Origin: a virus
Reading direction: 5' to 3' (one strand)
Length of the DNA: 24,915 bases
IMG/VR virus record: IMGVR_UViG_3300032285_001329
Span: 1 to 24,915 of that record
Under the pieces are notes generated by a model. The model was not told the origin of the DNA, ran no database searches, and saw nothing but the letters and a program-made list of their open reading frames with translations. Position numbers and translations under genes: made by a program. Shown here one piece after another: positions 4,950 through 17,214 of this stretch; positions within the stretch are counted from its first letter, which is position 1; the number at the start of each line of letters is the position of its first letter.

Positions 4950-5156
4950 ATGCAACTAAAAGATTACTTAGATAACAAACCGCATGGATCTAAGGCAGAT
5001 TTCGCTAAGAGCCTTGGTATCACAAAGACTTGGCTTTCGTTGATTTTAAATGGAAGCAAACAACCGAGCATTCAGTTGTGTATTGAGATAGAACGATTAA
5101 CAAAAAGAAAAGTAAAACGAAAAGACTTGAGACCTGATTTTTTTATTGGAGCGTAA
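4950..5156 (+). CDS. YdaS/Cro-like helix-turn-helix regulator (68 aa)
   Basis: The 68-aa protein is a single helix-turn-helix domain. KADFAKSLGITKTWLSLILNG (residues 15-35) is the HTH. The ending CIEIERLTKRKVKRKDLRPDFF matches the YdaS/Cro phage family, whose members typically end in 'IE..T.G.V.R.ELRPD'. It would bind DNA as a dimer. It is the first gene of the rightward operon, directly downstream of the divergent promoters and a small inverted repeat, so autoregulation and control of the leftward/rightward choice are likely. No second repressor gene is seen in the window. The start has a strong ribosome site. Confidence 0.85.
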   Translation: MQLKDYLDNKPHGSKADFAKSLGITKTWLSLILNGSKQPSIQLCIEIERLTKRKVKRKDLRPDFFIGA

Positions 5157-5157
5157 C

Positions 5158-5823
5158 ATGCACTATTACCCACACAACATTGCTGACTATAGAAAGGACA
5201 CTCGATTCCTTACTAAACTACAGCATTGGGCTTATAGAGAATTATTGGATGAATACTATTTAAGTGAGCAGCCAATAACAAATAATGAAAAAGACTTATT
5301 TTGGAGAATGGGAGCAACAACTGATGAAGAACAAAATGCTATCAAAACTGTATTACATGGTTTCTTTGAAGAAACTGAAAATGGTTTTATTCATAAACGC
5401 TGTGATGTTGAAATACAAATTTTTAAGGAAATGCTTGAGAAAAGGTCAAGGGCAGGCAAGGCATCAGGTAAGAGTCGTAGAAGTGAAACGAACACATGTT
5501 CAACACCTGTTCAACACGAGGTAGCTGATGATGAACAAACTAAGAACCAAGAAACAATAACTAATATCCATGTTGTTAGGCCTATGGATGTGAATGTATC
5601 TATTTGGGAAGATTATATGCATTTTCGTAAGGTTCAGAAAAAACCTATTTACGATGCAACTTTAAAGTCTATGAGAAAAGAAGCAGTAGCGGCTGGTATA
5701 AATTTGAATCAAGCTATCACTACATGTCTTGAAAACAATTGGATTTCATTCAAAGCTGAATGGTATGAAAAGATTAAAGGCAAAACAACAGACGGAAATA
5801 CATTTAAGTTGCCCGGAAAATGA
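5158..5823 (+). CDS. DUF1376 replication protein (probable initiator / helicase loader)
   Basis: I chose ATG 5158, with GGAG 6 bases upstream, over an in-frame TTG at 5146 that overlaps the regulator; the protein is then 221 aa. Residues 1-90 are a DUF1376 domain (YYPHNIADYRKDT, WAYRELLDEYYLSEQPI), a winged-helix-like module common in phage replication genes. Residues 95-140 form a polar linker. Residues 142-215 (WEDYMHFRKVQKKPIYD, then EAVAAGINLNQAI and FKAEWY) resemble the C-terminal domain of DnaT/O-like loaders. It precedes the DnaB/RepA-type ATPase gene, as lambda O precedes P. The linker is encoded by a repeat-bearing segment (5485-5565) related to the intergenic array near 15050, so the origin may lie inside this gene. 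Confidence 0.82.
   Translation: MHYYPHNIADYRKDTRFLTKLQHWAYRELLDEYYLSEQPITNNEKDLFWRMGATTDEEQNAIKTVLHGFFEETENGFIHKRCDVEIQIFKEMLEKRSRAGKASGKSRRSETNTCSTPVQHEVADDEQTKNQETITNIHVVRPMDVNVSIWEDYMHFRKVQKKPIYDATLKSMRKEAVAAGINLNQAITTCLENNWISFKAEWYEKIKGKTTDGNTFKLPGK
5485..5565. repeat. TGTTCAACA repeats embedded in the replication gene (candidate origin)
   Basis: Two perfect TGTTCAACA palindromes (5497-5505 and 5508-5516) sit 11 bp apart, after GAAACGAACACA. They are followed by AACAAACTAAGAACCAAGAA (about 5533-5552). The reverse strand of 14975-15097 carries the same order of elements: GAAACGAACACATGTT exactly, then the palindrome array, then AACAAACCAAGAACCAAGAA. Placement within the linker of the replication gene is reminiscent of lambda, whose origin iterons lie within gene O. 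Confidence 0.65.
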
Positions 5824-6173
5824 TTGGTATTCAAGAATTAATAGAAGTTAAGAAAGACTTTATACCTGAAATAGTTGAGGTATATGTTGGTGATGACTCT
5901 GATCAGCATTTTGCTAAAGAGTGGCATAAGTATTCAGATACTTTGGAGCATCCATCGATTGTAATTGAAGATAAAGATAACTTGCATTCTGTTGATTGGA
6001 GATTTGCTTTTAAGTCAACTGTTTTTATACGTGGCAACAACACTGACAGAATGATAAAGGTTTACGAATTAATTAATAAATATTTACCTGAAAGAGTTTT
6101 TATCTTTCACAACGATGGTAAGCAAACAGAAATTATAGATAGCAAAGGATTGTTAAGTGGAATTATTGAATAG
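5820..6173 (+). CDS. Hypothetical protein (117 aa) in replication module
   Basis: No family is recognised. The start overlaps the DUF1376 stop as ATGA, so the two are translationally coupled. The protein is acidic in its first half (VYVGDDSDQHF, HPSIVIEDKDN) and then shows an alternating strand/helix pattern with STVFIRGN, MIKVYELINKYLPERVFIFHND and KQTEIID. This is compatible with a small alpha/beta fold. Its place between the initiator-like gene and the ATPase gene suggests a replication accessory role, but that is inference. Confidence 0.68.
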   Translation: MIGIQELIEVKKDFIPEIVEVYVGDDSDQHFAKEWHKYSDTLEHPSIVIEDKDNLHSVDWRFAFKSTVFIRGNNTDRMIKVYELINKYLPERVFIFHNDGKQTEIIDSKGLLSGIIE

Positions 6174-7107
6174 CGAAGAGATAGACTTTGAGCAGTATCT
6201 TAAGCTCACTGAAGCTCACATGAAGGTAAAAGATGTGAGTGTGTTTATTGACGAGCTCAAAGAAGATGCAAGGAATCCTGTTGTCATTAATAAAATAAGT
6301 ATGCCGTGGGGAAAGACTTTAGGTGAATTTGATTTTAGAAGTGGTGAAGTAACTTTATACGCAGGCAGTAATGGTGGCGGTAAGAGTTTAATCACAGGAC
6401 AGATTGCATTAGGACTAATTAAGCAAGATCAAAAGGTTTGCATTATGTCATTCGAGATGAAACCAAAAAGAACTATATTGAGAATGACTAGGCAATTTAG
6501 TGGTGTTGATTTAGATAATCCGTTTTTAAAAGACAAGGCTAAGGTTAACGAAGAGTATTACGAACGACTAAGAAAGTTTTCTTCAGGGAAGCTTTGGTTA
6601 TATGATCAACAAGGAACGACTAGTTCTAAGCAAGTCATATCAGTTGCTAGATATTGTGCTGTTGAATTAGGTATCACACATATTTTTATTGACTCACTTA
6701 TGAAGTGCGTTGCAGGTGAAGATGACTATAACGGTCAGAAAGCTTTTGTAGATGAATTAACAGCATTAGCACGTGACCACAACGTACATGTACATCTTGT
6801 GCATCACATTAGAAAACTTGAAAGCGAAGAAAAGTTACCAAACAAGAACGATGTTAAAGGTACTGGAGCCATTGCAGATCAAGTAGACAATGTTTTACTT
6901 ATGTGGCGTAACAAAAAGAAAGAGCGCATGATTCGAGATGGTGAAGAGATTAAAGGCATAGCAGCTGACGCTGTATTGATGTGTGAGAAACAACGTAACG
7001 GTGAAAATGAAAACAGTTACCAACTTTGGTATCACAAAGACAGTCAACAATTTGTGGAGGATGAACAAAGCGTGCCAATGGCGTTTGATACTGTAGGTGC
7101 GTTTTAA
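6157..7107 (+). CDS. DnaB/RepA-like ATPase (replicative helicase)
   Basis: The 316-aa protein is a RecA-fold ATPase of the DnaB/RepA group. Walker A is GSNGGGKS (70-77). VCIMSFEMKPK (94-104) carries the conserved Glu. Walker B is HIFIDS (175-180). HVHLVHHIRK (211-220) and VKGTGAIADQVDNVLLMWR (233-251) correspond to the late helicase motifs seen in DnaB and T7 gp4. No primase domain is present, so priming must come from the host or another gene. The start is GTG at 6157 with AAAGGA 7 bases upstream, and it overlaps the preceding gene by 17 bases. It would unwind the phage origin after loading by the DUF1376 protein. Confidence 0.88.
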   Translation: MELLNSEEIDFEQYLKLTEAHMKVKDVSVFIDELKEDARNPVVINKISMPWGKTLGEFDFRSGEVTLYAGSNGGGKSLITGQIALGLIKQDQKVCIMSFEMKPKRTILRMTRQFSGVDLDNPFLKDKAKVNEEYYERLRKFSSGKLWLYDQQGTTSSKQVISVARYCAVELGITHIFIDSLMKCVAGEDDYNGQKAFVDELTALARDHNVHVHLVHHIRKLESEEKLPNKNDVKGTGAIADQVDNVLLMWRNKKKERMIRDGEEIKGIAADAVLMCEKQRNGENENSYQLWYHKDSQQFVEDEQSVPMAFDTVGAF

Positions 7108-14973: not shown

Positions 14974-14979
14974 ATAACT

Positions 14980-15007
14980 AGTTCTTAGTTCTTAGTTCTT
15001 GGTTCTT
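14980..15007. repeat. Four tandem 7-mers (A/G)GTTCTT
   Basis: AGTTCTT occurs three times, followed by GGTTCTT once, without interruption. The reverse strand reads AAGAACCAAGAACTAAGAACTAAGAACT. This matches the AAGAACCAAGAA tract that follows the palindromes in the DUF1376 gene. Confidence 0.85.
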
Positions 15008-15011
15008 GGTT

Positions 15012-15093
15012 TGTTCAACACGAGCTCAACTATGTTCAACATATGTTCAACACGTGTTCATCATGTGTTCAACACCTGTTCAACATGTGTTCG
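15012..15093. repeat. Iteron array: TGTTCAACA palindromes on an 11-bp period
   Basis: Perfect TGTTCAACA lies at 15012, 15033, 15044, 15066 and 15077. A one-mismatch copy (TGTTCATCA) is at 15055. Degenerate copies are at 15023 (AGCTCAACT) and 15088 (TGTTCG). Steps are 11, 10, 11, 11, 11, 11 and 11 bp, so all copies face the same side of the helix. Each unit is itself a palindrome (TGTT-C-AACA). The region 14974-15196 holds no supported gene. Besides the arrays it contains a C6-A7-T-C5-A4 tract (15097-15119). Confidence 0.85.
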
Positions 15094-15157
15094 TTTCCCC
15101 CCAAAAAAATCCCCCAAAAGAAAATAAACAAATCATGTAATTGCATACACTAATTGT

Positions 15158-15186
15158 TTGACTTCTCACTATTGTCCGTTTACATT
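15158..15186 (+). promoter_or_regulatory. Possible late promoter for the packaging/head module
   Basis: TTGACT (15158-15163) and TACATT (15181-15186) are 17 bases apart. A start near 15193 would leave only a few bases before the ATG at 15197, which has no Shine-Dalgarno, so the message may be leaderless. The box quality is moderate. Confidence 0.45.
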
Positions 15187-15196
15187 CGTATCTATT

Positions 15197-15769
15197 ATGG
15201 TAGATAAGAAGATAACAAAAGCTAATGTAGTGACATCTTACGAAGGTAAGGATGCTATTAAGCCCATTGTAGAGACACAAGTTCAATCCGATGACTGTGT
15301 AAAGAATAAAGGTGGTAGACCTACACTTTACAGTCTACAGATTGCTTTGGAGATATGTGACAGGATTGCAGACGGCGAGTCTCTTGTAAGTATTTGCAGA
15401 GACGAGCGTATGCCGAAGAAGACTGCGGTGTACGAGTGGCTGTTGCGCCACGAAGAGTTCGCGGAGATATATGCGCGCGCGAGGGAAGACCAAGCCGACA
15501 CATTGGCTGACGAAATCCACGCAATCAGTGACGAACTTCCCCAACAGATTGTTGATGACAAAGGTAAGACTCGTTATGACTCAGCTTACGTTCAATGGCA
15601 AAAGAATCGCGTAGACGCACGCAAGTGGGTTGCTGCCAAACTCAAACCTAAAAAGTATTCAGACCGCATTGCTCATGTTGGCGACAAAGAAGCTGACGGC
15701 ATTCAGGTCAATGTAAACATCTTTGACGAGATGCTAAAGAACTTAGAGCTTAAACGCCAAGCAAAATGA
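15197..15769 (+). CDS. terS: Terminase small subunit
   Basis: From ATG 15197 the protein has 190 aa. A TTG at 15158 in frame is possible but coincides with the -35 box. After a variable N-terminus comes GGRPTLYSLQIALEICDRIADGESLVSICRDE, a helix-turn-helix DNA-binding domain. KTAVYEWLLRHEEFAEIYARAREDQADTLADEI follows, an oligomerisation helix with the 'YARARE.QAD.L..EI' signature of phage small terminases. It ends with DARKWVAAKLKPKKYSDRI. It would recognise the packaging site and present DNA to the large subunit, whose gene follows with a 4-base overlap. Confidence 0.9.
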   Translation: MVDKKITKANVVTSYEGKDAIKPIVETQVQSDDCVKNKGGRPTLYSLQIALEICDRIADGESLVSICRDERMPKKTAVYEWLLRHEEFAEIYARAREDQADTLADEIHAISDELPQQIVDDKGKTRYDSAYVQWQKNRVDARKWVAAKLKPKKYSDRIAHVGDKEADGIQVNVNIFDEMLKNLELKRQAK

Positions 15770-17214
15770 CAGACGTTGTAGAGCTTCTTAAAGACAAAGA
15801 GATAGAAGCGCAGTTCAAGTCACTGCCAATTGCAAAACAAGTCGCGATAGCGTGGCGTATGAAGTGGTTAACTAAAGCGCATGATCACCAAATACTTCCA
15901 CACGGTGACTGGGCTATTTGGTTATTGTTAGGCGGACGGGGAGCAGGTAAGACAAGAACCTCTGCTGAACAGATTGGATGGTGGGCGTGGGAACAACCGG
16001 GCACGCGATGGTTAGTATCCGCACCGACAGCAATGGATGTACGTGGTACATGTATAGAGGGTGAATCAGGATTGCTTAACGTGATACCTGAGATGCTTGT
16101 TGCAGACTATAACAAGTCATTGCTCGAGATCAAGCTAACTAATGGCTCATTGATCAAAGGCATATCAGCGTCAGAACCTGATCGCTTTCGTGGTGGACAA
16201 TACCACGGTGCATGGCTAGATGAGTTAGCTGCATGGGATTACTTACAAGAAGCATGGGACATGATTATGTTCTCCGTGCGATTAGGACAGAACACAAAGA
16301 TTATTGCATCAACGACACCAAGGCCTAAAGACTTGATCGTTGACTTAGTAGGAAGGGCTGACGATGGCTCAGGCGAAGTAGTGATGTCAACTGCATCCAC
16401 TTACGCCAACATCGACAACCTAGCGCCAAGCTTCCAACAACAGATCCTTCAGTACGAAGGAACGAAGCTAGGACGACAAGAGATTTACGCTGAGCTTATT
16501 GATCCTGAAGAAGGTGGGATTGTTAAGCGTGATATGTTTAAACTTTGGGATGCACGTAAACCATTCCCTAAATTTGAATACATCATTCAGTCATATGATT
16601 GTGCTTATACCGAGAAGACAATCAATGACCCAACGGCTTGCTTAGTGTTTGGATTGTTCAAACCTACAGACGGCCCTATGTCAGTGATGCTGATAGATGC
16701 ATGGCAAGAACGCATGCAGTATCCTGATCTAAGACGAAAGGTGCGTGACGAGTATGAAGTTAGTTATGGTGCAGATAGCGAGTCCGACACAGGAGACTTT
16801 GTCAAAGGTAAGCGAGTTGATCTCATCCTTGTCGAAGATAAAGCGGCTGGAATCAGTCTCATACAAGATATGCAACGGGCGCATTTACCAGTGCGAGCTT
16901 ACAATCCCGGTAGAGCGGACAAAGTACAGCGACTATCCATTGTTGCAAACATTATCGCTCATGGACGCGTGTGGATTCCCGAGTCAACAGTACGACGTGG
17001 ATATGTACGTGATTGGGCCGAGGGCTTTGTCTCGCAGATATGTTCGTTTCCTGAAGCAACGCATGATGACTATGTGGATGCATGTACTCAAGCGCTTAGG
17101 TATCTTAGAGACGCAGGGCTGTTAAGTATAGATGCTCCACCAAGAGATGACTATGAAGACTATGCAGACGCTTACGGATACCAAGAACAAAGAGTAAACC
17201 CATACGCCGTATGA
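15766..17214 (+). CDS. terL: Terminase large subunit (ATPase and nuclease)
   Basis: The 482-aa protein is complete. The ATPase half has LLLGGRGAGKTRT (Walker A, 56-63), GAWLDELAAW (Walker B near 149-156) and IIASTTPRP (coupling motif). The nuclease half has acidic residues in SYDCAYTEK (near 277), LILVEDKAAG (near 352) and HDDYVDACTQALRYL (433-447). It pumps DNA into the procapsid and cuts the concatemer. The sequence type is the Terminase_6-like group common in P22-like and marine podo/siphoviruses. The ending of the gene and the next 150 bases are discussed under the neighbouring small frames. Confidence 0.95.
   Translation: MTDVVELLKDKEIEAQFKSLPIAKQVAIAWRMKWLTKAHDHQILPHGDWAIWLLLGGRGAGKTRTSAEQIGWWAWEQPGTRWLVSAPTAMDVRGTCIEGESGLLNVIPEMLVADYNKSLLEIKLTNGSLIKGISASEPDRFRGGQYHGAWLDELAAWDYLQEAWDMIMFSVRLGQNTKIIASTTPRPKDLIVDLVGRADDGSGEVVMSTASTYANIDNLAPSFQQQILQYEGTKLGRQEIYAELIDPEEGGIVKRDMFKLWDARKPFPKFEYIIQSYDCAYTEKTINDPTACLVFGLFKPTDGPMSVMLIDAWQERMQYPDLRRKVRDEYEVSYGADSESDTGDFVKGKRVDLILVEDKAAGISLIQDMQRAHLPVRAYNPGRADKVQRLSIVANIIAHGRVWIPESTVRRGYVRDWAEGFVSQICSFPEATHDDYVDACTQALRYLRDAGLLSIDAPPRDDYEDYADAYGYQEQRVNPYAV

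Follow-up and report, generated by a model that had tools for sequence, protein, structure and literature searches.

A putative second origin-like module, inverted relative to that of the initiator gene, lies before the terminase genes of a phage

Sequence features of the locus

The window analyzed here, a stretch of 24,915 nucleotides from a viral record (IMGVR_UViG_3300032285_001329), carries an initiator gene beside a DnaB-like helicase gene and, further to the right, the genes for the small (terS) and large (terL) terminase subunits. Repeat arrays are found in both regions (Table 1).

Table 1. Genes and sequence features of the window relevant to the two modules
Feature	Position	Strand	Remarks
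YdaS-like regulator gene	4950..5156	+	Considered as binder of the arrays; disfavoured
Initiator gene	5146..5823	+	N-terminal DUF1376 (PF07120), C-terminal part similar to lambda O (phrog_678); candidate binder of the two arrays
Iteron array in initiator gene	5486..5520	+	Two exact units (5497, 5508) and a half unit
Heptamer run in initiator gene	5538..5572	+	AACTAAG AACCAAG AAACAAT AACTAAT ...; matrix score 28.1
DnaB-like helicase gene	6157..7107	+	Next to the initiator gene
Heptamer run before terS	14977..15011	-	AACCAAG AACCAAG AACTAAG AACTAAG AACTAGT; unwinding-element-like; adjoins the iterons
Iteron array before terS	15012..15093	.	TGTTCAACA-type units at 11-bp steps; six good, two degenerate
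Promoter-like sequence	15158..15186	+	TTGACT-17-TACATT, after the array and ahead of terS; retained in relatives whether or not they have an array
Terminase small subunit gene (terS)	15197..15769	+	Sf6-like, PF20901
Terminase large subunit gene (terL)	15766..17214	+	

In the array before terS, exact TGTTCAACA units start at 15012, 15033, 15044, 15066 and 15077, the unit at 15055 (TGTTCATCA) has one mismatch, that at 15023 (AGCTCAACT) has three, and only a half unit (TGTTCGTTT) is present at 15088. The original prediction spoke of eight helically phased palindromes repeated every 11 bp with one step of 10. The array and its phasing are real and the measured steps (11, 10, 11, 11, 11, 11 and 11) agree with that description, while the number of good units is six, the other two being degenerate. 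Over the whole window, the units formed a chain of five at 10–12 bp spacing, compared with a maximum of three in 200 dinucleotide shuffles, and the TRF score of the array was 104 (maximum of 62 in 100 shuffles). Simple slippage or chance as the source of the array is ruled out by these shuffles, and a chance origin of 15012–15093 is excluded for practical purposes. Neither an RNA family (at gathering score) nor a terminator was found at the array site. Where the packaging genes begin, near window position 15000, the G+C content climbs from about 0.36 to 0.44.

Directly to the left of the array lies a run of heptamers, which the first reading of the letters had missed, as it had the array in the DUF1376 gene and the differing arrays of the relatives. 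Using a matrix trained on 120 heptamers from the initiator genes of other phages, with the present clade excluded, the run at 14977–15011 ranked first among 49762 window positions (0 of 200 shuffles). By nearest-neighbour energy, the heptamer stretch would not melt with unusual ease: 26% of the 35-bp segments in the window match it or are weaker.

The initiator gene and its internal module

The N-terminus of the initiator matches the DUF1376 domain (E = 1.9e-26) and its C-terminal part matches O-like replication initiation proteins (phrog_678, E = 4e-10). Outside the array before terS, the exact TGTTCAACA unit occurs at a single other location of the window, 5486–5520, within this gene. The two sites contain a 33-nt inverted repeat of 88% identity (5485–5517 and 15065–15097), and the initiator linker can be aligned with the terS site over 90 nt without gaps (72% identity). 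The region 14977–15093 is thus an inverted, non-coding copy of the module of the initiator gene (5486–5572).

Such modules are not restricted to this phage. A scan of viral contigs for two tandem units yielded 73 stretches, many of them in initiator-like ORFs and followed by AACCAWWAACC-type repeats (judged by eye). A DUF1376 gene is present in 33 of 54 records, and these records contain 23 strict heptamer runs, 22 of which lie in the DUF1376 gene; the one outside is the terS site of the window. The strict pattern requires AAYYA heptamers, so that the looser runs of other close relatives are visible by the matrix only. Mononucleotide shuffles of the 54-record set gave no strict run. Since 22 of the 23 runs fall in DUF1376 genes, the iterons and heptamers within this gene look like a widespread, lambda-type gene-internal origin.

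Several scattered sites of similar kind were also seen. Two TGTTCAACA-type sites lie 1.4 kb or about 180 bp apart in other viral contigs (G047 and G052; G025, G028 and G054), and such sites occur at three places in G058; no initiator gene was detected in these six contigs by the DUF1376 profile. In L250, a TTCAACGACCGTTGAA site near 5689, about 4.3 kb upstream of the helicase gene, resembles the iterons of its own initiator gene. In phiAC-1 (L242), a lone, apparently intergenic ATGCGAACGCATTG unit, about 19.5 kb from the initiator gene, matches the iterons inside that gene.

The predicted structure of the initiator (mean pLDDT 81, pTM 0.45) has two helical domains, the N-terminal one including a beta hairpin, and between them a low-confidence linker (residues 117–139), which is encoded where the iterons lie. 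Foldseek returned no match to the model at E ≤ 0.001, and a sequence search of solved structures gave no relative (best E 0.26). The N-terminus is predicted to be winged-helix-like: a second structure comparison returned many winged-helix domains (Z 4–6), among them RepA-type initiator structures (Z 4.8–5.0), with the N-termini of plasmid initiators and DnaD at Z 4.2–5.0, not above unrelated winged helices. This likeness fits a DNA-binding role of the initiator, without proving it.

The site before terS in close relatives

We compared 23 loci with readable upstream sequence, the window included, whose TerS proteins share at least 67% identity. In 16 of the 23, an array occupies the slot that is bounded by a small upstream gene on one side and by a conserved CCCC(G)AAA stretch on the other. 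The arrays are of mutually unrelated types (TGTTCAACA, CGTAATACG, TTGACGTCAA, TGCAATGCA and CGCATTGCG), with spacings of mostly 11, 22 or 33–34 bp. Unit sequence and number thus vary among relatives, and the spacing stays mostly at multiples of 11, which upholds the phasing on which the original prediction had relied. With the heptamer matrix, the slot gave the top score of the whole locus in all 16 array-bearing loci (0 of 200 shuffles), and nothing was found in the seven loci without an array. In loci of the three-unit types, the palindrome counts are not above those of the best shuffles; the case for these loci consists of the heptamers and of the sharing with the initiator gene, the latter for G012 and G013 only, where that gene is on the contig.

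Five further close loci were obtained via TerL, one with the module (L342) and four without (L343, L344, L346 and L350). The L342 module has another iteron type, with AAGTATAGTT-like repeats beside the heptamers before terS. Altogether, iterons and heptamers are both present before terS in 17 of 28 close loci and both absent from 11, counting among the latter L078, the upstream sequence of which is unrelated and possibly chimeric. In L344 and L346, hardly any sequence separates the end of the upstream gene from the conserved flank. As the module is missing from 11 of the 28 loci, it is not essential to all of these phages, and the natural relatives without it are ready controls.

Nearly all close relatives, whether or not they carry an array, have retained a promoter-like sequence, including its TGTCCGTTTACATT part, ahead of terS (that of L082 and L094 was read by eye, as the pattern search had stopped at an earlier site). 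In the window it lies about 65 bp downstream of the array, an arrangement suited to the main rival explanation, in which the array would be an operator through which the initiator represses or activates the terminase or late promoter, timed by initiator level or fork passage, with no initiation at the site. The distant relatives described below, which have two to three iterons at the start of terS without heptamers, are also in its favor. However, the promoter is kept in relatives lacking the array (L080, L081 and L083), and the heptamers that accompany the iterons in 16 of 16 array-bearing close relatives would be needless for an operator. We consider operator control, and with it the late-gene switch that had been among the roles first suggested, the less likely reading.

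The two sites covary with the DUF1376 domain

Both genes are on one contig in four phages, namely the window phage and G019, with TGTTCAACA iterons, and G012 and G013, with ATACGNNCGTAT iterons. In each of the four, the slot before terS carries the iterons of the phage's own initiator gene, inverted. When the contigs were scanned with the words of the linker, the slot scored highest outside the initiator gene in each of the four phages, and none of the other scanned segments equalled it (0 of 445, 0 of 312, 0 of 236 and 0 of 463). In phages of the same type, linker and terS site can be aligned over about 70–90 nt with iterons and heptamers in register, without gaps in the window phage and G019 and with at most one in G012 and G013. 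The eight within-type comparisons gave 44–74 bits, whereas the eight between-type comparisons gave at most 35 bits, in the heptamer part.

The DUF1376 domains show 90–91% identity within an iteron type and 42–45% between types. The C-termini of the initiators do not follow the type: those of the window phage and G013 share 61% identity across types, and those of G012 and G013 are unrelated within one. This natural exchange of domains, like the alignments, points to DUF1376 as the part of the initiator that would recognise the two sites.

Two other candidates for the binding protein can be weighed against these data. First, the array lies directly upstream of terS, and a pac site had been among the roles first suggested for it; in this reading, the small terminase subunit would bind the array as a pac or cos site. 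The specificity of the site does not follow TerS, which is nearly constant across array types: the proteins are 82–94% alike across the four phages (57–88% in the more variable first 60 residues) although the arrays are unrelated, the distant relatives L298 and L301 share the helix-turn-helix region of TerS although their arrays differ, and the same units are found in the initiator gene. A pac or cos site is disfavoured and is the least probable of the explanations considered. Second, another protein, such as a host factor or the YdaS-like regulator, might bind both arrays; the regulator gene adjoins that of the initiator and would therefore covary as well. Between phages whose arrays differ, however, the helix-turn-helix segment of the regulator hardly changes, in contrast to the DUF1376 domains. 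The regulator is disfavoured as the binder by these comparisons, and binding by any such other protein seems very improbable.

A strong second site was found in 4 of 33 DUF1376 contigs, all of this clade (scores 17–44), and the other 29 scored at most 9; twelve of the 33 are public phage records and many of the others are fragments, in which absence proves nothing. The covariation rests on two clean type pairs and the distant pair L298/L301. That the two sites change together suggests that one phage protein uses both, and such a shared protein may link DNA copying to DNA packaging.

Distant relatives

More distant relatives, with TerS identities near 50%, were collected by helicase and TerL scans. 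In L263, L280, L298, L303 and the L254 group, the CCGAATCGG units found at 11-bp steps in the initiator linker recur where terS starts or close to it, and L301 has CCAAATTGG/CCAATTTGG both in the linker and at the terS start. The iterons at the terS start differ between L301 (CCAATTTGG, L301:17172-17451) and L298 (CCGATTCGG, L298:8741-9020), with a matching change in the initiator linker; the TerS sequence flanking these iterons hardly differs between the two.

An exact palindrome common to the linker and the terS region was found in 10 of the 29 entries compared, representing five distinct lineages besides G013, and the rest have none; among the 29, L252 is G013, L358 is the contig of L280 and L349 is a misplaced match on the contig of G019, and the ten include G013, one duplicate contig and several near-identical entries. 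Since most entries lack a common palindrome, the trait is not shared by all. The terS-proximal iterons of the distant relatives, which partly fall inside the initial codons of the predicted terS gene, have no recognisable heptamers beside them. A further single site in the DUF1376 coding part of these relatives is not always of the linker type, L254 being different. A prophage-based host scan of genome contigs returned two weak TerS relatives (43–45%) and gave no host call.

Proposed function of the second module

Five observations are established by the sequences: i) the duplication of the module, ii) its inverted orientation, iii) the covariation with the DUF1376 domain, iv) the all-or-none occurrence of iterons and heptamers, and v) the phasing. 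With a probability of roughly 0.6, we consider 14977–15093 to be a second, inverted origin module that would be bound by the initiator and load the helicase, serving late initiation or the arrest of forks toward concatemer formation. A second replication origin had been among the roles first proposed, and the view that the array is a selected protein-binding site and not a product of slippage had been put forward with it; both gain from array and heptamers being an inverted copy of the initiator-gene module that covaries with the DUF1376 domain. GC skew and composition of the window gave no clear sign of a second origin.

In the proposed sequence of events, the initiator would assemble on the iterons inside its gene, open the DNA near the heptamers and load the helicase. 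It would also bind the second, inverted iteron set before terS, where the adjacent heptamers may be the place of strand opening or helicase loading. The site could then support a second, late round of initiation or arrest forks coming from the first origin. As has been proposed for oriL and oriR of SPP1, replication would in this way turn to concatemer formation close to the packaging genes. Initiator binding, origin or fork-block activity, and coupling to packaging are what we infer from sequence comparisons.

With two iteron sets of one type on a single molecule, the second array might also act as a brake on replication in the manner of iteron plasmids, either by drawing off initiator molecules (titration) or by becoming coupled to the origin via bound initiator (handcuffing). 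The heptamers, however, would again be needless, and we regard this possibility as very unlikely.

In the literature searched, SPP1 is the only precedent for such paired sites. This phage has one origin within its initiator gene and, about 12–13 kb away, another in a non-coding part of the late region; both (oriL and oriR) consist of direct repeats and an AT-rich element. Its origin-binding protein gp38, whose binding has been measured, has been proposed to stall forks when bound to oriR, the second site, and to trigger the switch to concatemers (PMC6316719, PMC3485210, PMC5615212). The window phage likewise has a gene-internal site and a second site of like organisation about 9.5 kb further on, before the late genes; a RusA-family resolvase gene is present in both phages and, in the window as in SPP1, lies in the same region. 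In SPP1 binding was measured, whereas here it is deduced from sequence. The second site of the window is directly before terS and inverted relative to the first copy, a comparison of orientation that refers to the window phage only. The inverted orientation and the location directly before terS appear to be new.

In lambda, iterons and an AT-rich tract lie inside gene O (PMC7466680). The window phage resembles lambda in having iterons and a special tract inside the initiator gene, between the presumed DNA-binding N-terminus and a C-terminal part that matches the O-like family, but differs in its second copy outside the gene, its palindromic units at 11-bp steps, and a heptamer run in place of a plain AT-rich tract. 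Some iteron plasmids have their origin inside the rep gene, and the window initiator gene similarly carries its own iterons; the window, however, is from a phage, its second site is beside packaging genes, and the fold match of its initiator to plasmid initiators is not above that to other winged helices.

A more far-reaching and still tentative idea is that the module before terS, with initiator bound, is a built-in switch from replication to packaging, which would trap or restart forks from the first origin close to where packaging starts, so that concatemers form where terminase begins, with iteron specificity being exchanged at both sites whenever the DNA-binding domain is swapped. The case consists of two matching origin-like modules, one within a coding sequence and the other free of coding constraint, the specificities of which change together. 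DUF1376, a common domain of "unknown" function, thereby gains a likely one, origin binding, and the paired modules may bear on how phages pass from the replication of circles to the concatemers needed for packaging.
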